Part shown: positions 6,496-44,218 of the stretch, one piece after another
Position numbering within the stretch: the first letter of the stretch is position 1
How the letters are laid out: the number at the start of each line of letters is the position of its first letter
Assembly: GCA_002869535.1 (NCBI GenBank)
Contig: PKUK01000009.1
Location: 1-64,000 of the forward strand
DNA length: 64,000 nucleotides
Reading direction: 5' to 3'
Origin: Arcobacter sp.
GTDB lineage: Bacteria; Campylobacterota; Campylobacteria; Campylobacterales; Arcobacteraceae
Translations under genes and position numbers: made by a program
Notes under the pieces: model-generated
Database searches by the model: none
Seen by the model: the letters and a program-made list of their open reading frames with translations, nothing else
Told to the model about the DNA's origin: nothing

Positions 6496-8754
6496 ATGAA
6501 ACACTTGTTATTAAAACTAATATTAATTAATCTATTTATTTTTACACTAAATGCTAAAGAAAATGAAAAAATCACATTAAGACTTGATTGGCTAAATCAA
6601 TTCCAATTTGCGGGATACTATATTGCAAAAGAGAAGGGTTTTTTCAATGAAGTTGGCCTTGATGTAGATATAAAAGAGTTTGAATATGGTATTGACCAAA
6701 TAGATGAAGTCTTGGAACAAAAAGCAAACTATGCCGTTGGAAAGTCCTCTTTAATTATTGATAAACTAAATGGAAAAGGTATTGTTGCCTTAGCTGCGAT
6801 TTTTCAAAGCTCTCCTATGATTTTATTAACAACTAATTTATCAATAAAAAAACCTGAGGATTTATTACATAAAAAAGTAATGCTTACCCCAGATGCAAGA
6901 ACAGCAATAGCAATTAATTCAATGATAACCTCAAGGGGTGTAAACCTTGAACATATTGATTTTCAACAACATAGCTTTAATTTAAATAATTTAATTAATG
7001 GAAAAACAGACGCCATGGGTTCATATATCTCAAATGAGCCTTTTTTACTAAAAAATAGAAATATAAAATTTAATATTTTAAACCCTAAAGATTATGGTTT
7101 TGATTTTTATGGTGGTATTTTATTTACCTCAAATATTGAACTAGAGAACAATCCAAAAAGAGTGCAAGACTTTCAAAAGGCTGTTTTAAAGGGCTGGGAA
7201 TATGATTTTTTAAATATTGAAGAGAGTATTGAAATCATAATGAATAAGTACAATACTCAAAATAAGACTTACTCTGCGCTTTTTTACGAAGCAAACTCTT
7301 TAAAAAAGTTATCTGGAATAGATGAAAATAAGTTAGGTCTTATAGAAAAGAGTAAACTTGAAGAGATTCAATACATATATACTATGCAAAAATATGTTCA
7401 AGCAAATCAAAAATTATCTAACTTTATTGTTTATCCTTCGGATGTAATATTAAGCTCCATTGAAAAGAATTATTTAAAAAGAAATACTCTCACATATTTA
7501 TCTAAAATTAATGCACCATTTAACAATGGATTAGGAATTTCTAGTATCGAACTTGACTATATTGATGCTCTTAAAAGCAAAGCAAATATGGATATAAAAA
7601 TTAAAAATGACTCAAATATTGAAGAATCATTAGATTTATTAAATAAAAATCAAGCATATTTTAAAGCTGACTTCTCAAATACTCCAAAATCAAGTGATTA
7701 TTTATACACTCAAGCAATTGCTACTTTTGACTTAGCAATAGCAACTAATTTATCAAAAACATATATATCTTCAACAAGTATATTAGAAAATAAAAAAGTT
7801 GCTATTAGAAAAGATTGTTTACTATTAAAAGAACTTGAAAAAAAATATCCAAATATTAAGCTAATTAAAACAGAATCCACAAGTGATGCTTTAAAATTAC
7901 TCTCTGATGATAAGGTTTATGCCGTAATAGACTTATTACCACTATTAAATTTAAATATTTTAGAAAATAATAATACCTCAACAAGAATATCAGGTGTTAC
8001 AGGTTTGAAATTTGAATTAAAATATATTTTAAATAAAGAAGATAAAGTATTACAAACTATTTTAAATAAAATTATTCAAAGAATAGATGAAAAAGTAAAA
8101 AATGAAATCAATGAAAAATATAATATACTCAATTATGAAACAACTGAAAATATCTCTTTATTTTACAAAATATTAATTGTATTAGTTCTTCTATTATTTA
8201 TTTTTGTTCTTTATAATATAAAATTAATAAATGAAATGAAAAGAAGAAAAGAGTTAGAAAAAGAGCTGCATAAAATAGCAGATACGGATGAACTAACGAA
8301 CTTAAATAATAGAAGAAAAATGATTAAGATATTAATAAATTCTATCACTATTTCAAGACAATATAAAACACCCTTATCTATCATATTTATAGATATTGAT
8401 GATTTTAAAATAATAAATGATACAAAAGGTCATGCCATAGGTGATAATATATTAAAAGAGTTTTCTAAACTAATAAATAAAAATATTAGATCAACAGATA
8501 CCTTTGGAAGATGGGGAGGAGAAGAGTTTTTATTAATCCTTCCAGATACTTCTACAGAAAATGCAAAAAGAACTGCTGAAAATCTAAAAGAGATAATTTC
8601 TTCACATAAATTTAAATCAAAAGACAGTATTACAAGTAGTTTTGGAGTAACAACTTTAAAAGAGGATGATGATAAAAAGAGTTTTATAAAAAGAGCTGAT
8701 GAAGCTATGTATTTTGTAAAAGAAAATGGAAAAAATGCAGTTAAAGTAGATTGA
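6496..8754 (+). CDS. Periplasmic NMT1/SBP sensor diguanylate cyclase
   Basis: Predicted membrane-bound cyclic-di-GMP synthase of 752 residues. Signal sequence 1-20; an NMT1/THI5-like binding domain from about 22 to 240 with the family motif LDWLNQFQFAGYY; a second binding-protein-like region about 330-550; membrane helix about 556-578; GGDEF domain to the end. The active site is GGEEF at 674-678, and an RSTD inhibitory I-site lies exactly five residues before it, so feedback inhibition by c-di-GMP is expected. The ligand is unknown. It follows fbpABC after 69 nt. The stop codon is TGA. Confidence 0.85.
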   Translation: MKHLLLKLILINLFIFTLNAKENEKITLRLDWLNQFQFAGYYIAKEKGFFNEVGLDVDIKEFEYGIDQIDEVLEQKANYAVGKSSLIIDKLNGKGIVALAAIFQSSPMILLTTNLSIKKPEDLLHKKVMLTPDARTAIAINSMITSRGVNLEHIDFQQHSFNLNNLINGKTDAMGSYISNEPFLLKNRNIKFNILNPKDYGFDFYGGILFTSNIELENNPKRVQDFQKAVLKGWEYDFLNIEESIEIIMNKYNTQNKTYSALFYEANSLKKLSGIDENKLGLIEKSKLEEIQYIYTMQKYVQANQKLSNFIVYPSDVILSSIEKNYLKRNTLTYLSKINAPFNNGLGISSIELDYIDALKSKANMDIKIKNDSNIEESLDLLNKNQAYFKADFSNTPKSSDYLYTQAIATFDLAIATNLSKTYISSTSILENKKVAIRKDCLLLKELEKKYPNIKLIKTESTSDALKLLSDDKVYAVIDLLPLLNLNILENNNTSTRISGVTGLKFELKYILNKEDKVLQTILNKIIQRIDEKVKNEINEKYNILNYETTENISLFYKILIVLVLLLFIFVLYNIKLINEMKRRKELEKELHKIADTDELTNLNNRRKMIKILINSITISRQYKTPLSIIFIDIDDFKIINDTKGHAIGDNILKEFSKLINKNIRSTDTFGRWGGEEFLLILPDTSTENAKRTAENLKEIISSHKFKSKDSITSSFGVTTLKEDDDKKSFIKRADEAMYFVKENGKNAVKVD

Positions 8755-8763
8755 CTACTTTAA
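8741..8763. terminator. Convergent hairpin between diguanylate cyclase and ubiD-like gene
   Basis: Arms TTAAAGTAG (8741-8749) and CTACTTTAA (8755-8763) form a perfect 9-bp stem with a 5-nt loop. It spans the ends of two convergent genes and overlaps the TGA of the left gene. There is no strong T-run, so termination efficiency is uncertain. Confidence 0.45.
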
Positions 8764-8764
8764 C

Positions 8765-10576
8765 TTATATTTGAAACTTAGAGATAAGTTCATCAGAACA
8801 CTCTAATATTCCACGTTCTCTTAAATCATCAATTACACTTTTTGTACAATCAACATCATCAGGCCATCTTCTTTGAAAATTATCATATGAGTTCTTATTT
8901 GTAGCATCAACACCTAAAGTATCATTTGCTATAAAAATATCTCTATTTGAATCTATATTATTACAAACTCTCCAAATAAGCATGTAAGGGTTGCTCACAT
9001 CATTTTTAGCCTCATCTACTATGATTAAGATTCTTAAGTGCTCATAGAGAGGTTTAAGCTCTTCAAATAGATATTTTTGACTCCTAGTTTTATTTACAGT
9101 TATTATCGTAACTGGATTTTTTGTATATTTGAAATATTGTTTTAAATTAATAATATCACTTGAAATCTCTTTCATTTTAGTTAATAACTCAACATCACCT
9201 AAAACTTTTACTCCACTATCACTAATTTCATCACTAGTACAATCAAGACCTAGTTTTCCACCAACTGCAAATTTGGGACTTGAATGGTCAAGTGCATCAA
9301 CTACACCCCTTGAGATAAACAGGTCATTTATATCTATTCTATTTAGAATATGTTTTGTTATCTCTTCATGGTTTGTAAGTTCTGGTGCATCATGGTTTAC
9401 AAAAATCGCATGTTTTACAAAACTCATTTGCCCTACTCCCCAAAACGCATGCATCATTTGACTTGCATGTCCAGGATATAGTGTTTTGATTTTGGCAATT
9501 ATAAGATTATGAAAAACTCCATTTTCAGGCATATAATAATCAATCAAATCAGGAGCTGTAGTTTTAAGTAAAGGTAAAAATATTCTTTCAGTTGCATGCC
9601 CCATATATTTATCTTCTAATGGTGGTTTACCAACAACTGTTGCTAAAAATGTTGGTTTTGCTTTACTTGTAATTGCTGTAACTTCCATAAAAGGATACTC
9701 TTCTTCAAGGGTATAATAACCAGTATGATCTCCAAATGGTCCCTCTATTCTCATCTTAGATGGGTCTACAAAACCTTCTATAATAAAGTCATTATCCCTT
9801 GGAACATAAATATCATTTGTAATTGATTTTACAAGTTGAGCATTTTTATTTTTTACAAAACCATAAAGCATAAGTTCAAATATACCTATTGGCAAAGGTG
9901 CTTGTCCACACCAAATATACATAGGATCACCGCCAACTCCAATAGATACTGGCATTTTTTTACCTGCAGCTTTATATTCATGGAAAAAATGATTACTATC
10001 TTTGTGTATTTGCCAATGCATTCCTAAAGTATGATCATCATAAACTTGAAGTCTATACATTCCTAAGTTTTTAAGTTCACCATTCAGACTTGTCGTATAA
10101 ACTTGCCCCATAGTAATAAAAGGCCCACCGTCTTGCTCCCAAGTTGTTAATACTGGCAAGTCAGATAGTTTGGCATCACTTCCTAGTTTTATAACTTGTT
10201 GGCACTCACCTTTTCCTTTACTTTTTTTAGGAATAGTATTTTTTAGTGCAAATAGTTTTCCAAAAGTTGAAAGTTTTTCACTAAATGTTGTTGGTGGTTT
10301 CATTTTTAGTAAGCTTTCTATCTCACTTCCTATCTTATCTCCATCACCAATAAACAGTTTTACTGCTTTTTCATTACAAAATACATTCATCAAAACTGGA
10401 ATATCAAATTTCTTTCCAGATTTTTTATCAATAGGATTTGTAAATAAAATCGCTTTTGAATCCTCTTTTTTAACCTCTACATATGCGATGTGTGGTATTT
10501 CTAAGTATATATCCAACTCATCATCAATAACTTTTAATAAATCATTCTTTTTAAGTAGCTCTATTGCTTTTTCCAT
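8765..10576 (-). CDS. UbiD-family decarboxylase (menaquinone biosynthesis type)
   Basis: UbiD/MenA-decarboxylase family protein of about 603 residues, a prenylated-FMN enzyme. The family motifs IEGPFGDHTGYY and ATERIFLPLLKTTAPDL are present and uninterrupted. In Campylobacterota such proteins act in the futalosine menaquinone route or other aromatic acid decarboxylations. I chose ATG at 10576 (MEKAIELL) because GAGGG lies just upstream; the longer frame from 10597 adds seven residues without a better RBS. Convergent with the diguanylate cyclase. Substrate is inferred, not shown. Confidence 0.82.
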   Translation of the reverse strand: MEKAIELLKKNDLLKVIDDELDIYLEIPHIAYVEVKKEDSKAILFTNPIDKKSGKKFDIPVLMNVFCNEKAVKLFIGDGDKIGSEIESLLKMKPPTTFSEKLSTFGKLFALKNTIPKKSKGKGECQQVIKLGSDAKLSDLPVLTTWEQDGGPFITMGQVYTTSLNGELKNLGMYRLQVYDDHTLGMHWQIHKDSNHFFHEYKAAGKKMPVSIGVGGDPMYIWCGQAPLPIGIFELMLYGFVKNKNAQLVKSITNDIYVPRDNDFIIEGFVDPSKMRIEGPFGDHTGYYTLEEEYPFMEVTAITSKAKPTFLATVVGKPPLEDKYMGHATERIFLPLLKTTAPDLIDYYMPENGVFHNLIIAKIKTLYPGHASQMMHAFWGVGQMSFVKHAIFVNHDAPELTNHEEITKHILNRIDINDLFISRGVVDALDHSSPKFAVGGKLGLDCTSDEISDSGVKVLGDVELLTKMKEISSDIINLKQYFKYTKNPVTIITVNKTRSQKYLFEELKPLYEHLRILIIVDEAKNDVSNPYMLIWRVCNNIDSNRDIFIANDTLGVDATNKNSYDNFQRRWPDDVDCTKSVIDDLRERGILECSDELISKFQI

Positions 10577-37919: not shown

Positions 37920-37940
37920 TAATGATAATAAGTATCATTA
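37920..37940 (+). promoter_or_regulatory. Fur box in divergent intergenic region
   Basis: A symmetric site with arms TAATGATA and TATCATTA around a 5-nt centre. It lies between the minus-strand hypothetical at 37866 and the rightward metal operon, so it could control both. Confidence 0.72.
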
Positions 37941-37962
37941 ATATATACTTAAGTTTTTAAAA

Positions 37963-37988
37963 TGTATAATTTTGATAATCATAATTAA
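37963..37988 (+). promoter_or_regulatory. Promoter and second Fur-like site of the metal operon
   Basis: An extended -10 TGTATAAT lies at 37963-37970, followed at once by TTTGATAATCATAATTA, a Fur-like sequence that would cover the transcription start. The first gene begins at 37998. Confidence 0.6.
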
Positions 37989-37997
37989 GGTTAATAT

Positions 37998-38147
37998 ATG
38001 AAAAATATATCTTGTAATCAAAATGATGAAAAGAAATCTCTTCATCAAAAAAGTGTAAAGATTCATAACAATCTATGGATAGTCTATTGGTCTACACTTC
38101 TACTTACTGTTTGTATGCTCTTTATAAAAGATTTTATTAATGCATAA
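37998..38147 (+). CDS. Small single-helix membrane protein
   Basis: Open frame of 49 residues with AAGG 9 nt before the ATG; a polar, lysine-rich first half and a hydrophobic helix (about 29-44, IVYWSTLLLTVCMLF). Its end overlaps the start of the Fur-family gene by 8 nt, which supports it as a real, coupled gene. No family recognised. Confidence 0.6.
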   Translation: MKNISCNQNDEKKSLHQKSVKIHNNLWIVYWSTLLLTVCMLFIKDFINA

Positions 38148-38592
38148 AAAAGAAGTTACTAGCTTTGATATTGCATTAAAAAATTTTAGACAACATATTA
38201 CAAATTTGAATTTAAAAAATACTATTCAAAAAGATTACATTTTAAAAGTACTATATTATTCAAAAAAACATCTGACAGCTGATGAAATTGAGGCTGAACT
38301 ACTACTAAAATACAATATAAACATATCAACAACAACTGTTTACAAAGCTTTAAAACTTTTAGAAAAACTCAATATTATTTCTTCTCTTGAAGTTTTAGAG
38401 AGTGCAAAGTGTTATGAATTGAACTCAAACTTACCCCACGGACATTTAATATGTACAGTTTGTCATTCAATAATTGAGTTTAAAGACAACTCAATAGATA
38501 ATATACAATTAAAAATAGCAAATACTCATGCTTTTACTTTAACTAATCAGGTTATGACAATATATGGATACTGTCAAAAATGTCAAACATAA
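38140..38592 (+). CDS. Fur-family metal-responsive regulator
   Basis: Protein of 150 residues with the Fur winged helix (TADEIEAELLLKYNINISTTTVYKALKLL, about 47-80), the metal-sensing segment HGHLICTVCHSIIEF (about 105-119) with the first CxxC, and a second CxxC in GYCQKCQ at the C-terminus, the pair that binds structural zinc. Whether it senses iron, peroxide or zinc cannot be told. Its position at the head of the iron locus and between Fur-like boxes suggests local and self control. Confidence 0.85.
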   Translation: MHKKEVTSFDIALKNFRQHITNLNLKNTIQKDYILKVLYYSKKHLTADEIEAELLLKYNINISTTTVYKALKLLEKLNIISSLEVLESAKCYELNSNLPHGHLICTVCHSIIEFKDNSIDNIQLKIANTHAFTLTNQVMTIYGYCQKCQT

Positions 38593-38601
38593 TATTATTT
38601 A

Positions 38602-38618
38602 TTGATAATGATTACAAA
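38602..38618 (+). promoter_or_regulatory. Possible Fur-like site before the HMA-like gene
   Basis: TTGATAATGATTACAAA resembles half to two thirds of the Fur consensus. It lies in the 83-nt gap between the regulator and the next gene and could give a second promoter. Confidence 0.4.
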
Positions 38619-38674
38619 TTTATAATAAGTAATTATTAAGACAAAATCTATAAAATATAAACAAAGGAAATAAT

Positions 38675-38989
38675 TTGATTACTACACAAGATATTGTTAA
38701 TATAGCTAGTTTTTTTACAATAATTGCACATACTCCTGGAAGACTTAGAGTAAGAGTAAATCCAGAAATTAAAAATATAGAAGGAAACTTATCCTTAGAA
38801 GATATTGAAAATTTACCAAAAAAAATAGATGGAATAACAAATATCAAGATTAATAAAATAATTGCATCTGTAACAATTACATATGATCCAAATGTGTTTA
38901 GTCCAACTATTTGGGAAGATTTAGTTAATAATAGAAATATTGATGAAATATCTATTTTAATAAATAAATTAGCAAAGGAGGTTATATAA
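38675..38989 (+). CDS. HMA-like protein with HTPGRLRVR motif (FezC-like)
   Basis: Protein of 104 residues with the beta-alpha-beta pattern of a heavy-metal-associated domain but, in place of the usual CxxC, an arginine motif HTPGRLRVRV near residue 19. A replacement of CxxC by arginines is described for proteins of ferrosome (Fez) clusters. TTG start with AAGGAAA upstream. It directly precedes a ferritin-like gene and shares the arginine-type motif with the P1B ATPase N-terminus. Name by analogy only. Confidence 0.6.
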   Translation: MITTQDIVNIASFFTIIAHTPGRLRVRVNPEIKNIEGNLSLEDIENLPKKIDGITNIKINKIIASVTITYDPNVFSPTIWEDLVNNRNIDEISILINKLAKEVI

Positions 38990-39667
38990 TTGGAAACAAA
39001 CCTTGATCAAGAACTATTAACATCTGCAAGAGTAGATATTAATAGTGAAATTCCCATAACTACACAAATTCTTAGAATTGCTGTTTATGATGAGTTTAAA
39101 GCTTATGAAACATATACTAAGATAATTGAGTATTTTGGATTAGTACAACCTTTTGTAAATATTAAAGAGGCAGAAGCCATCCATTATGGAGTACTTATAA
39201 AACTAATGGAAAAATATGGGGTTGAAATACCTACAAATGATTGGTATTCTAAAATTGAAATTCCAAATACCTTAATAGAGTGCTGTGAAATGGGAGTTGC
39301 CGCAGAAATTAATAATATCGCTATGTATAATAATTTGTTAAGTCATGTGACACAAGATGATATTAAAAATGTGCTTTATCAACTTCAAGCTGCATCTTAC
39401 AATAATCATCTTCCAGCATTTAGAAACTGTGTACTTATGCATTATAATAGCAGTGAAAACCAGACTTTTAATCAAGAAGATATGATGGAAAAGTTAGGTG
39501 AATACCAAGGTATATTAGATGATATTATGTCAGGAAATATAGATGAAGACTCTATTACAAAAATATTTTCTAAATTGAATTTATCAATGACAAGTGGAGC
39601 CGTTTTTGGTGGTGCAATTATAGCACTTATGAATAGTTATATTTCAAACAAACAAAACAAGGAGTAG
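38990..39667 (+). CDS. Ferritin-like (DUF2202-type) protein
   Basis: Protein of 225 residues with four-helix ferritin-like spacing of ligands: Glu in YDEFKAYETY, ExxH-like EAEAIHYG, Glu in CCEMGVAAEINN and His in NNHLPAFRNC. C-terminal segment is hydrophobic (about 200-217) and could anchor it to a membrane. TTG start just after an AGGAGG site. A role in iron oxidation or storage is inferred from the fold and the neighbours. Confidence 0.68.
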   Translation: METNLDQELLTSARVDINSEIPITTQILRIAVYDEFKAYETYTKIIEYFGLVQPFVNIKEAEAIHYGVLIKLMEKYGVEIPTNDWYSKIEIPNTLIECCEMGVAAEINNIAMYNNLLSHVTQDDIKNVLYQLQAASYNNHLPAFRNCVLMHYNSSENQTFNQEDMMEKLGEYQGILDDIMSGNIDEDSITKIFSKLNLSMTSGAVFGGAIIALMNSYISNKQNKE

Positions 39668-39670
39668 AAA

Positions 39671-39907
39671 ATGCCTTTACCATTTATAGCAGGATTAGTA
39701 ATTGGAGCTGGTGCAGTAATTGCTTATAATAAATCAGAAAAAATAAAAAGCAACACAGATAAATTTGTTGATAAATCAAAAGAATTTGCAAATGAAACTT
39801 TTGAAAAAACAAAAAAGAACATGGATGAAATAAAAGAAAATATATGTTCAAAAAAAGAGACTAAAACAAAAACAGCAAAAAGCAAGGAAGAAAAATGCGA
39901 GGAATAA
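39671..39907 (+). CDS. Small YtxH-like membrane protein
   Basis: 78 residues: a glycine-rich membrane helix (about 4-20, FIAGLVIGAGAVIAY) followed by a lysine-rich coiled coil. Start has AAGGAG upstream. Overlaps the next gene by 13 nt. Such one-helix proteins with basic tails could bind mineral or lipid; no function known. Confidence 0.65.
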   Translation: MPLPFIAGLVIGAGAVIAYNKSEKIKSNTDKFVDKSKEFANETFEKTKKNMDEIKENICSKKETKTKTAKSKEEKCEE

Positions 39908-40266
39908 ATGACCTTACAATAGATACAGGAACTCCTAGAAATGTATTAGGACATGTAATAAGTGGAGCAATTGCCTCTGCTGTAGTTTCAGGAGCTATAA
40001 ACTATAAAAAAGTAAAAACCCAAGAAATAGAAAAAAAAGCAGCTATTAAAGATACTATTAAAAAAACTTCTCAAGGTGCAATTGCAACAGGTGCAGCAAT
40101 TGCAACTGCTAATTACTTAGGAGAAAAAGGTGGTTTACTAAAAGCTGTTACTGCTCTTTCAATTGGAGCTATGGGGATTTATGCTGTTGAAATGATTGAA
40201 GAAAAACTTGATCAAAAATATCTAACAAATGAAAACTATCTTTTAGAAGAGGAAACAAATGAATAA
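39895..40266 (+). CDS. Two-helix glycine/alanine-rich membrane protein, faintly MamC-like
   Basis: 123 residues with a first hydrophobic helix about 17-35 (HVISGAIASAVVSGAI), a basic loop rich in Lys (about 38-56), a glycine/alanine-rich second segment (58-100) and an acidic tail. The layout resembles the magnetosome protein MamC/Mms13, which has two helices and a charged loop; this is an observation on architecture and not a proven homology. ATG lies after AGGAAG; last 8 nt overlap the next gene. Confidence 0.5.
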   Translation: MRGINDLTIDTGTPRNVLGHVISGAIASAVVSGAINYKKVKTQEIEKKAAIKDTIKKTSQGAIATGAAIATANYLGEKGGLLKAVTALSIGAMGIYAVEMIEEKLDQKYLTNENYLLEEETNE

Positions 40267-40594
40267 TCAATACGATATAAATATTGAAAATACACGACCA
40301 AATAATGCAAAAGTAAATGCAAATATTAATCAAAACCCATATATAAATCAAAACTTTAATCCCGCAGCAAATACTTCACAACAAAACAACTCTGCAGGTG
40401 GTTTTAATACGGGTGACTTTGTAAAAGGTGCACTTATTGGTGCAGCAGTTACCTACTTACTTACAAATAAAACTGCACAAGAAAATGCATTTAAGGCATT
40501 TGGAAAAGGAAGTGAACTTTTCCAAGCTGGTATAGAAGAGTTAAAAGAGCGATATGAAGATGTAAAAGCTCAAATACAAGCAAATAAAGAATAG
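40259..40594 (+). CDS. YtxH-like protein with Asn-rich N-terminus
   Basis: 111 residues: about 45 residues rich in Asn and Gln, then one glycine-rich membrane helix (GDFVKGALIGAAVTYLLT) and an amphipathic charged helix to the end. Coupled to the gene before (overlap 8 nt) and 5 nt before the ATPase. Likely a structural membrane protein of the same compartment or complex. Confidence 0.62.
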   Translation: MNNQYDINIENTRPNNAKVNANINQNPYINQNFNPAANTSQQNNSAGGFNTGDFVKGALIGAAVTYLLTNKTAQENAFKAFGKGSELFQAGIEELKERYEDVKAQIQANKE

Positions 40595-40599
40595 CATTA

Positions 40600-42699
40600 A
40601 TGAAAAATAACTTTATTAAAGTACATCAAACATCTACAAGAGTTAGATATAAATATTTTTTACTTAAAGAAAAATTCATAGATGAAAATATTTTAAAAAA
40701 TCATCTTAAAAGAATTGATTATGTAATTGATGTACGAATAAATAAAAAAGCCTTTTCAATCATATTTGAAATACAAAAAGATATTACAGAAAAACTAGAA
40801 GAAATCTTAACTAAGCTAACCCTAGATGAGTTACTAAGTAATTGTGAAAATGAAGCAGTTTGTGTTTCTTGCGTCAGTGAGGAAGAACCTTCAATAAAAG
40901 GAATGCTTAATGCCTCAAGTGCTTTAATCTCTGAAAGACTTGTTAGAAATAATATGTTAAAGGCTGGTATAACAACTGCTGCTTCAATACCTTTATTAAT
41001 TGATGGGTCTAAAGAACTTTTATCCCAAGGCTTAACTTCAAAAGTTTTAGAGAGTGCTGCCGTTGCTATTTCTATTTATAGAAAAGATTATCTTGCTGCA
41101 AACTCTACAAATGTAATGCTTGAACTTGGCGAATATATTGAAGAGACGACTGTTCATAAAAGTGATGATTTATTAAAAGAGTTAGCCAAACCAAATGTGG
41201 AAGAAGCTTGGGTTGAAAAAGTAGTAGATGGAAAAACAACTGAAATCTTAATCAAAAGTTCTGAGGTTGAAGTTGGAGATATCGTGGTAGTTGGTATTGG
41301 AAATACAATACCAGTTGATGGACATATCTTAGAAGGTACAGGTAGTGTAAATCAAGTATCTATGACAGGAGAAGCAGAACCAATTGTAAAGTATAGAGGA
41401 GATAGAGTTATCTCTGGAACTATCATAGAAGAAGGAAGATTTAGGATTTGGGCTGAACATGTGGGCTCAAATACGGCTACTCAAAGAATCCGTCACTACA
41501 TAGAAAATTCACTAAATGAAAAATAATCTGTTCAACTAAAAGCAAATAAACTAGCAAACAAGCTAGTACCTGTAACACTAGGACTAGCAGGAGTTTCATA
41601 TATCTTCGCAAAAGATTTTGAAAGAGTAGCTTCTATTTTACAAGCTGACTACTCTTGTGCCTTAAAACTGGCAACCCCAGTTGCCTTTAAATCAACTATT
41701 TCAAAAGCTGGGCATAATGGAATTATGATAAAAGGTGCAAAATCTATTGAAGCACTTAGCAATGCAGATACCTTTGTATTTGACAAAACTGGAACTTTAA
41801 CTTGTGGAGAGCTTGAAGTAATCTCAGTAGAATCGTATAGTGATGATTGGACAGAAGAAGAAGTCCTTAATCTAACTGCTTCAACAGAAGAGCACTATTT
41901 CCACCCTGTTGCAGAAGCCGTTGTAAAAGCAGCAAAAGAGAGAGGTTTTGTACATATGCACCATGAAGAAGTTGAGTTCATAGTTGCACATGGAGTTAAA
42001 ACAGAAGTAAAAGGAAAATCAGTAGTAATAGGAAGTAGACACTTTGTGGAAGATGATGAAAAAATTGATTTTTCTGAACACAAAGATAAAATTAACAATT
42101 CACTTAAAAATGGTAAAACCCTACTTTATATTGGATACGATGGGAAACTTTTAGGAACTATTGGACTATCCGATGAATTAAGAGAAAATACAAAAGAATC
42201 AATTGCAAAACTTAAAAATCTTGGTGTAAAAAACATCATTATGCTAACAGGTGATACAAAAGAAAAAGCAAAACTAATTGCCGATGAGATTGGTATTGAT
42301 GAAGTAAGAGCTGAATTACTTCCTCAAGACAAAGCAAAAATAGTAAAAGAGCTTATGAGTGAAGGTAAAAAAGTGGCATTTATAGGTGATGGAATAAATG
42401 ATGCACCTGCACTTATATCTGCACATGTTGGAATATCTATGAGTAGAGGTGCCGATATTGCAAAAGCAACTGCTGACATTAGTCTTTTAAAAGATGATAT
42501 TGCCTGCGTTGTAGAAGCAAAAGAGTATGCTAATAAAACAATGAATTTGATTAATAACAATTTCAATGCAACAGTTGGAATCAACTCTTGTATACTTGCA
42601 GGTGCTACATTTGGTCTATTTTCTCCAATTGTAACAGCTGTTTTACATAATGGAACAACCATTGGATTATTGCTTAATTCAATAAGGGGTGTTAAGTAG
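40600..42699 (+). pseudogene. Atypical P1B-type ATPase (FezB-like), in-frame TAA
   Basis: Metal-transporting P-type ATPase of 699 codons. N-terminus has HQTSTRVRYKY (arginine motif where other P1B enzymes have CxxC); actuator motif MTGEAEP; membrane metal motif is SCA (DYSCALKLATPVA) in place of CPC; phosphorylation motif DKTGTLT; HP motif YFHPVAEAV; GDGINDAP hinge. SCA and arginine motifs fit the P1B-6 group found in ferrosome clusters. TAA at 41524-41526 follows YIENSLNEK; the same frame continues SVQLKANKLANKLVPVTLG. A second Ser (TCA) is expected there. Without read-through no phosphorylation domain would be made. Confidence 0.82.
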
Positions 42700-42750
42700 T
42701 AGTAATTGATAATAGTTATTATTTTTATTTAAGTTTTTTTAGATAAAATA

Positions 42751-42767
42751 TTGATAATTATTATCAA
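42751..42767 (+). promoter_or_regulatory. Perfectly palindromic Fur box
   Basis: TTGATAATTATTATCAA is a perfect 17-nt palindrome, a near-ideal core Fur site. It lies 11 nt before a small gene and downstream of the P1B ATPase, so the last two small genes probably form their own Fur-controlled unit. Confidence 0.78.
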
Positions 42768-42777
42768 AAGGATTAAT

Positions 42778-42897
42778 ATGCCATTTTTATTACCACTTGC
42801 AACAGCTTTAACAGCAGTTTTAACAGTAAAAACTGTACACAAAACTGCTAAAGTAATAGATAAAAGGAAAAAAAGAAATGAAAGAACTACCAATTGA
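42778..42897 (+). CDS. Small membrane protein (39 aa)
   Basis: Open frame with AAAGGA seven bases before the ATG: hydrophobic helix (FLLPLATALTAVLTVKTV) then a strongly basic tail with KRKKRNER. Overlaps the next gene by 20 nt. The Fur box and RBS directly before it argue that it is expressed. Confidence 0.55.
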   Translation: MPFLLPLATALTAVLTVKTVHKTAKVIDKRKKRNERTTN

Positions 42898-43105
42898 TTT
42901 AGAGATTCAAAAAGAAGCAGCCAAAATTGGAATGACAGCAACTTTAGGGGCTACTGTTGTAACTTCTATGTTTATGAAAAATAAAGTTGCCAAAAAAGTT
43001 CATGTAGTAGCTGGTGTTGCCTTTTGTGGATTTGCATTGTGGCATCATATGTTATATCAACCAAAAAACAAACCAAAAAAACCTATATCTTTGCAAAAAG
43101 CTTAA
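42878..43105 (+). CDS. Small membrane protein of the metal locus (75 aa)
   Basis: 75 residues with two hydrophobic segments (about 17-33 and 40-57) separated by KNKVAKKVH and ended by a Lys/Pro-rich tail. AAAGGAAAAAAAG precedes the ATG. No family recognised. It is the last gene before a bidirectional terminator. Confidence 0.6.
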   Translation: MKELPIDLEIQKEAAKIGMTATLGATVVTSMFMKNKVAKKVHVVAGVAFCGFALWHHMLYQPKNKPKKPISLQKA

Positions 43106-43241: not shown

Positions 43242-43742
43242 CTAATTAAAATTTTTCTTTAATAAAGTGGTCCACTCTTTTACTCTTTTGTTTGTTAGAG
43301 TATCTTGTGTATCCTCATCTAAGGCTAAGCCAACAAATCTATTGTCAATAAGAGCTTTTGATTCATCAAAACTGTATGACTCATCAATCTCCCACTCACC
43401 AATAATTTTTGCACCCATACTTTTTATTTGTTCGTAAAGTATGCCCATTGCATCTAAATATGTATCAGGATACCCATCTTGATCTCCTAAGCCAAAAAAA
43501 GCAACTGTTTTAGATGAAAAATCTACTTTTTTTAACTCTTCAAAATTATCATCCCAGTCATCTTGCAAATCACCATCTCCCCAAGTTGAAACTCCAAGTA
43601 TTACATTGCTATACTCATTTATTTTTTCTAAACTTATATCTGCGATGTCATATATTTCATCTATGGCTAGTTCACCTGCAATAATATTTGCTATGTTAGA
43701 AGTATTTCCCGTACTACTTGCATAAAATATTGCTGTTGTCAC
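43242..43742 (-). CDS. fldA: Flavodoxin
   Basis: Flavodoxin of 166 residues. The phosphate loop ASSTGNTS (8-15) binds FMN phosphate; the two isoalloxazine loops are STWGDGDLQDDW (about 51-62) and FGLGDQDGYPDTY (about 83-95). Carries electrons to pyruvate/2-oxoacid oxidoreductases and similar partners. The gene is preceded by a hypothetical gene that overlaps it by 29 nt and has Fur boxes before it, so induction in low iron is expected, as flavodoxin replaces ferredoxin. Confidence 0.92.
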   Translation of the reverse strand: MTTAIFYASSTGNTSNIANIIAGELAIDEIYDIADISLEKINEYSNVILGVSTWGDGDLQDDWDDNFEELKKVDFSSKTVAFFGLGDQDGYPDTYLDAMGILYEQIKSMGAKIIGEWEIDESYSFDESKALIDNRFVGLALDEDTQDTLTNKRVKEWTTLLKKNFN

Positions 43743-44157
43743 TGCAACTCCTTTTTTTTAAAATATCATTTAATGAATATGGGATTAGTTTTATCACATA
43801 ATCATTACAGGTATCTTCCAATATTGGAATTTTTACCTGAATGTGTTTATTGAACTCTTTATTCTTAGGATAAACAAAATATACATATTTAAATTCACTA
43901 TTAAGAACCACATCACAAGCAATTTTAACTTCATTGTCAATTGATAATTTATTCTTATTCATATTTGTAAACACAGGAACTACTTTTATTGAAGGGTGAT
44001 TTGATAATATAATATCAATGCTCTGTTCATTTTTTTCTACAAATCTATTTTTAGTATTTCTTGATATTTTTTTATATACGTACTCAAAAAAGTTTTCTTC
44101 TACACTTCTTGTATTTAAAATAGTACTTACTAAATTTTCACATTCATTGAAACTCAT
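43714..44157 (-). CDS. Hypothetical protein upstream of flavodoxin
   Basis: 147 residues, of no recognised family; soluble, with the motif KYVYFVYPKNKEF in the middle and a Cys-containing C-terminus. I start it at ATG 44157 (MSFNECEN) because AAAGG lies nine bases upstream; the longer frame with TTG at 44199 would run through the Fur box. Overlaps the flavodoxin gene by 29 nt. Confidence 0.55.
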   Translation of the reverse strand: MSFNECENLVSTILNTRSVEENFFEYVYKKISRNTKNRFVEKNEQSIDIILSNHPSIKVVPVFTNMNKNKLSIDNEVKIACDVVLNSEFKYVYFVYPKNKEFNKHIQVKIPILEDTCNDYVIKLIPYSLNDILKKRSCSDNSNILCK

Positions 44158-44170
44158 ATCTAAACCTTTA

Positions 44171-44190
44171 TATTGATAATCAGTATCATA
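44171..44190 (-). promoter_or_regulatory. Fur box before the flavodoxin unit
   Basis: TATTGATAATCAGTATCATA is an imperfect palindrome with ATTGATA and TATCAT arms, 14 nt upstream of the start at 44157. Iron repression of the hypothetical-flavodoxin-40aa unit is inferred. Confidence 0.65.
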
Positions 44191-44218
44191 TATAAACAAC
44201 TCTTAAAAGAGGCTTATT

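Follow-up and report, generated by a model that had tools for sequence, protein, structure and literature searches.

A putative ferrosome (fez) gene cluster with a ferritin-like protein in Arcobacter sp. and other Campylobacterota

Gene content and Fur-type boxes of the locus

The DNA analysed here, a 64-kb stretch of Arcobacter sp. contig PKUK01000009.1 (the window), contains a run of eight genes (38675-43105) with Fur-type boxes and a Fur paralogue ahead of it. This run is very probably the form that the fez cluster, which encodes ferrosomes (iron bodies bounded by a membrane), takes in Campylobacterota. The window comes from a 2.68-Mb Campylobacterota genome in 12 contigs, whose family is shared with Arcobacter-type genomes. 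Between 37998 and 43105, a 49-amino-acid (aa) open reading frame (ORF) and the Fur paralogue are followed in turn by genes for an HMA_2 and a ferritin-like protein, for three small proteins (78, 123 and 111 aa), for a P1B ATPase and for two more small proteins (39 and 75 aa; Table 1). Pfam cut-offs were exceeded by the Fur, HMA_2 and ferritin-like proteins (the last by both DUF2202 and Rubrerythrin, only just), the YtxH and DUF4405 matches were weak, and NCBIfam placed the ATPase in TIGR01525. The Fur gene is one of at least two Fur-type genes in the genome, the nearest other copy being 40% identical.

An earlier note on this DNA had described a Fur-family regulator, an HMA-like protein with the sequence HTPGRLRVR, a ferritin-like protein and three small glycine-rich proteins, and all of these genes are present. 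The two further small proteins that it placed behind a Fur palindrome also exist, but the last of them is in fact FezC, so the locus includes a canonical fez gene left unnamed in the note. Its mention of several YtxH-like proteins fits the 111-aa protein alone, and weakly.

Table 1. Features of the putative fez locus and in-frame stop codons
Feature	Position	Strand	Remarks
Fur-type box	37923-37937	+	One mismatch to TGATAATNATTATCA; upstream of the 49-aa ORF and Fur gene
49-aa single-helix small protein	37998-38147	+	Overlaps Fur start codon; conserved in loci L038, L039 and L041
Fur-family regulator	38140-38592	+	PF01475, 6e-28
Fur-type box	38603-38617	+	Two mismatches; 72 bases ahead of HMA_2 start
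HMA_2-domain protein	38675-38989	+	PF19991, 8e-8, above cut-off; arginine motif HTPGRLRVR replaces CxxC
Ferritin-like protein (DUF2202 type)	38990-39667	+	C-terminal glycine-zipper tail, residues ~186-224
78-aa small glycine-zipper protein	39671-39907	+	Corresponds to gene 3 of the six-gene operon in order and size and, weakly, in sequence
123-aa small hydrophobic protein	39895-40266	+	Corresponds to gene 4 of the six-gene operon
111-aa YtxH-like protein	40259-40594	+	Zipper GALIGAAVTYLLTN; YtxH match weak (0.019, below cut-off)
FezB-type P1B ATPase	40600-42699	+	HxTxxRxR N-terminus, DYSCALKL (SCA) membrane motif, DKTGT, GDGIND; one in-frame stop
In-frame TAA in fezB, codon 309	41524-41526	+	Ser in both same-genus relatives (TCA in G070)
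Perfect Fur-type palindrome	42752-42766	+	TGATAATTATTATCA; ahead of the last two genes
39-aa single-helix protein	42778-42897	+	Kept mainly in Arcobacteraceae
FezC, 75 aa, short DUF4405-like predicted b-type cytochrome	42878-43105	+	KKVHVVAGVAFCGFALWHHMLY; VH...HH
In-frame stops in the window	17883, 19670, 41524, 46052		nuoG (17883), nuoH (19670), fezB (41524)
In-frame stops elsewhere in the window's genome (G000)			L172, L182, L184-L187, L267 and others

Three sites in the window match TGATAATNATTATCA with no more than one mismatch, against 0.11 expected from shuffled sequences. Two of the three (37923 and 42752) flank the cluster and the second is perfect, which bears out the Fur-box flanking and perfect palindrome of the earlier note; the third lies at 44174. 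Ten relatives share a perfect palindrome at this position ahead of the last genes, and upstream of HMA_2 degenerate boxes recur among relatives at about -72 to -82. The fez genes of Clostridioides difficile are repressed by Fur (PMC12574912), and the boxes in the window and at matching places in relatives point to Fur or iron control here too. The box at 44174, with one mismatch, is shared by a minus-strand pair (43242-44199) of a flavodoxin gene (43242-43742) and an uncharacterised 161-aa gene (43714-44199), and one to three flavodoxins adjoin the fez cluster in several relatives.

Relationship to known fez operons

Rhodopseudomonas palustris makes ferrosomes from six fez genes; rpa2333-2338 have been grouped with metal transport (PMC6879726) and haem b binding by FezC has been demonstrated (PMC10979944). 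The Arcobacter locus resembles an operon of the RPA2333-2338 type in encoding HMA_2, two small hydrophobic proteins, a YtxH-like protein, FezB and a FezC domain, with a shared middle block in the same order. It differs in the placement of FezC, which is encoded here as a separate protein of 75 aa at the 3' end but in the six-gene operon forms the C-terminal part of an HMA_2 fusion at the 5' end, and in having an extra ferritin-like gene, an extra 39-aa gene and the Fur paralogue in front. One replicon of Azospirillum brasilense encodes an HMA_2-FezC fusion, HMA_2, two small hydrophobic proteins, a YtxH-like protein and the ATPase, and Rhodopseudomonas sp. BR0M22 (L088) has the same six genes. 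Profile comparison of the 75-aa protein with the C-terminal domain of the HMA_2-FezC fusion gave an hhalign probability of 96% (E 1e-8), and the protein has the paired histidines of the DUF4405-like cytochrome. The arginine motif of HMA_2 and the small glycine-rich membrane proteins are shared with the six-gene operon as well. Operons of Azotobacter, Thauera, Aromatoleum and Oligella share with the window the order HMA_2, ferritin-like protein, small proteins, YtxH-like protein and ATPase, but the FezC domain of several such operons (for example L108 and L119) is encoded on the opposite strand some 5-6 kb away, and that of others is an upstream fusion. The fezXAB genes of C. difficile are far fewer than those of the cluster here. 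By description they are comparable, with a Fur-repressed transporter FezB and a membrane protein FezA (PMC12574912).

The SCA membrane motif is that of P1B-6 ATPases. In a maximum likelihood tree, some reference branches of which are long, 36 FezB-like pumps, including those of the window, Rhodopseudomonas, Azospirillum, Magnetospirillum and others, fall on one side of a branch with 100/99 support, while the other side holds CopA and ZntA of E. coli and, among others, both CPC ATPases encoded in the window's genome. The SCA motif is kept in nearly all 36 pumps (the Cereibacter pump reads YACP). The window's ATPase combines this motif with an arginine-type N-terminus and a place in the FezB clade; neither the CPC motif and CxxC domain of P1B-1 and P1B-2 pumps nor a grouping with CopA or ZntA was found for it. 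A place among ordinary Cu, Zn or Co P1B groups was part of the outcome named in the earlier note as telling against a ferrosome cluster, and the pump, FezC, HMA_2 and small proteins instead support that proposal.

The NCBIfam labels of the ATPase ('heavy metal translocating', 'cadmium family') would suit an ordinary heavy-metal efflux locus, in which a Cu, Zn or Co P1B ATPase is accompanied by accessory membrane proteins. However, the pump has SCA rather than CPC and an arginine N-terminus rather than CxxC, the tree separates it with good support from CopA, from ZntA and from both CPC ATPases of the genome, FezC and HMA_2 partners are present, and Fur-type boxes take the place of metal-export regulators. 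An efflux locus is therefore very unlikely, and copper or zinc efflux in particular was rejected on the motif and the tree.

Gene order was compared in the first 20 Campylobacterota loci fetched, which were chosen around ferritin-like hits. The genes for HMA_2, the ferritin-like protein, the 78-, 123- and 111-aa proteins and the ATPase have the same order and strand in all 20, and FezC follows in 19; the 39-aa gene occurs mainly in Arcobacteraceae. This conservation, which the earlier note had proposed as a check, is much more than chance. It is because of the kept gene order, the match to the six-gene operon of Rhodopseudomonas and Azospirillum and the position of the ATPase among FezB-like pumps that we assign the locus to fez.

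Several points weigh against this assignment. The fezB gene of this assembly has an in-frame stop, and the DUF4405 score of the 75-aa FezC is below the Pfam cut-off. Rhodopseudomonas sp. BR0M22 served in the comparison as a stand-in for the proven Fez proteins of Desulfovibrio magneticus, Shewanella putrefaciens, R. palustris CGA009 and C. difficile, and iron is assigned as the likely pump substrate by homology only. Furthermore, metal ligands of the ferritin-like protein are lost in several Campylobacterota and betaproteobacterial copies, which indicates that its iron chemistry is not essential everywhere.

The ferritin-like protein and distribution of the cluster

AlphaFold predicted a confident helical core for the ferritin-like protein (residues 20-150, predicted local distance difference test scores over 90) and a low-confidence tail helix (186-224). 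The best solved match by both fold and sequence is MJ0754 (PDB 3q4n/3q4r, DUF2202), which shares the ferritin-like fold at about 20% identity, while the zipper tail falls outside the match. The protein has a four-helix DUF2202-type fold with the Glu/His ligands E35, E62, H65, E106 and H140. These are kept in nearly all Arcobacteraceae-type copies and in many beta- and gammaproteobacterial ones, but in six copies from Campylobacterota with small genomes the five positions are ERAEY or EKGEY, and in Azoarcus/Aromatoleum copies they are EARTQ. Unlike the ligands, tail glycines 203 and 207 are invariant in two alignments. Six loci (L158, L159, L160, L161, L166 and L167) retain the tail and have lost three of the five ligands, which suggests that these copies are a non-catalytic form. 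If the tentative reading proposed below holds, retention of the tail where ligands are lost in some lineages would mean that the task of the tail, building vesicles, came first or is the more fundamental one.

In a search of 10,560 ORFs, the tail profile also matched the 111- and 78-aa proteins, and its top match outside the ferritin-like proteins was a protein rich in Gly and Pro that takes the corresponding slot in a fez-like operon of Cereibacter. These shared matches suggest the fusion of a ferritin-like domain to a tail common to ferrosome-membrane proteins. Azotobacter, Thauera, Aromatoleum, Oligella and others have the ferritin-like gene in the same slot, which places it outside Campylobacterota as well. 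The description of the cluster in the earlier note as distinct from the described sets is apt for the extra ferritin-like and 39-aa genes, but the former also occurs in beta- and gammaproteobacterial fez operons.

We tentatively propose, as an idea that falls somewhat short of even odds, that the ferrosomes of Campylobacterota and some beta- and gammaproteobacteria own a membrane-tethered ferritin-like protein, in which a ferritin-type iron site and the shared zipper tail would bring two ways of storing iron into one organelle. If the cluster works, this subunit would link protein-shell and membrane-bounded iron storage. The position of the gene in mid-operon, with its ligands intact, would also suit a membrane-associated ferritin/DUF2202 store without vesicles, where the pump merely feeds a ferritin-like store at the inner membrane. 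We consider this improbable, as several lineages lose the ligands yet keep the cluster, and alphaproteobacterial operons of the same architecture, including that of Rhodopseudomonas, have no ferritin-like gene.

For a vesicle-forming cluster, we infer substrate, transport direction, vesicle formation and enzyme activity from homology, gene order, Fur boxes, conserved ligands and the shared zipper motif. Iron shortage would lift Fur repression at the boxes ahead of the first and last genes. The vesicle membrane may be shaped or marked with the help of the glycine-zipper and HMA_2 proteins, FezB would move ferrous iron from the cytosol into the vesicle, and FezC could carry electrons over the same membrane, so that the oxidation state in which iron is held or released could be chosen. 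The zipper tail would hold the ferritin-like protein at the vesicle membrane and, with its five ligands kept as they are here, the protein may bind or oxidise iron beside the pump.

Across 299 Campylobacterales genomes, the pump gave 69 matches in 68 genomes and the ferritin-like protein was found in 51. Most pump loci with a weak or absent ferritin-like score have a diverged copy in the same slot; L162 and L163 do not, and in L165 the contig ends before the slot. Judged by these sequences, this form of the cluster, with its extra and predicted membrane-anchored ferritin-like protein, is widespread among Campylobacterota. If it works, ferrosome genes would be present in about a fifth to a quarter of the sampled Campylobacterales species (68/299), including small-genome lineages that may be host-associated; ferrosomes have so far been shown in few bacteria. 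A literature search returned no paper joining ferrosomes with Campylobacterota and none on DUF2202, although Grant 2022 and Pi 2023, which lay outside the search, could list such clusters.

Two Arcobacter isolates from chicken meat carry the fez cluster on 133-kb plasmids (L063, CP129951.1, and CP134847.1), so the cluster may move between strains. A second, more distant P-type ATPase is encoded directly upstream of the fez cluster in L050 (8127-10307), L054 (2457-4610), L159 (1942-4053), L160 (1826-4003) and L167 (1643-3745). The two compared in detail, from L050 and L054, combine a CPC motif with an arginine-type N-terminus.

Interruption of fezB and stops across the genome

The SCA motif and arginine N-terminus of the P1B ATPase had been recognised in the earlier note, but the gene had been taken as a single open frame and its TAA at codon 309 overlooked. 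This codon encodes an invariant Ser in the other Campylobacterota copies aligned. The stop divides the ATPase into 308 aa and a 324-aa ORF that starts beyond the SCA motif, and no usable restart start codon was found ahead of that motif. The isolate may thus have an inactive pump; alternatively, the TAA may contain a miscalled base.

A census of this assembly found 22 candidate stops in 724 kb, 21 of them TAA, compared with 2 candidates in 400 kb and 6 in 1.2 Mb for a relative. Orthologue comparison flagged 14 of 148 genes, with 15 candidate stops in all; about 12 of these stops are clear and belong to one class, GAA, GAG or TCA changed to a stop by G:C to T:A. The affected genes include nuoG, nuoH, fezB, sensor kinases, a chemoreceptor and CheV-like, SelB-like and trpB-like genes. 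Because about a dozen of the 148 genes carry like stops, the fezB stop is probably an assembly or mutation-load effect and not a selected loss. It belongs to a genome-wide pattern that reflects either an assembly or DNA-damage artefact or unselected mutation load, and we lean towards the artefact.

Were the nonsense mutation real, it would have taken fezB and left a dead ferrosome locus whose remainder is decaying in this isolate. The lack of a restart before the SCA motif is consistent with this, as is the finding that the window's copy alone carries a stop among the 69 FezB matches. However, the other cluster genes are all open and conserved, the remainder of fezB shows no other change at residues invariant in other Campylobacterota copies and has a dN/dS of 0.09, and like stops in nuoG, nuoH and other conserved genes indicate an artefact or general mutation load. 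We regard a dead locus as unlikely, at about one chance in four.

Other explanations for the stops were rejected. No tRNA with a TTA anticodon, as expected of an ochre suppressor reading TAA, was present among the tRNAs read from 46 places. Recoding of TAA does not fit either, as the stops replace both Glu and Ser, two are TAG, and TAA is the commonest terminator. A MutY match above cut-off is absent from both same-genus relatives as well, so loss of MutY does not explain why this genome alone is affected. Bulk counts gave no sign of general G:C to T:A hypermutation (G>T 330 versus T>G 312; C>A 501 versus A>C 507), while a small unselected G:C to T:A excess is possible (E to stop 8; D to Y 8 versus 2). 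Elsewhere, the ATPase of L042 (G226; 6664-8769) has the phosphorylation motif FDKTVTLT in place of FDKTGTLT and is possibly another inactive FezB.

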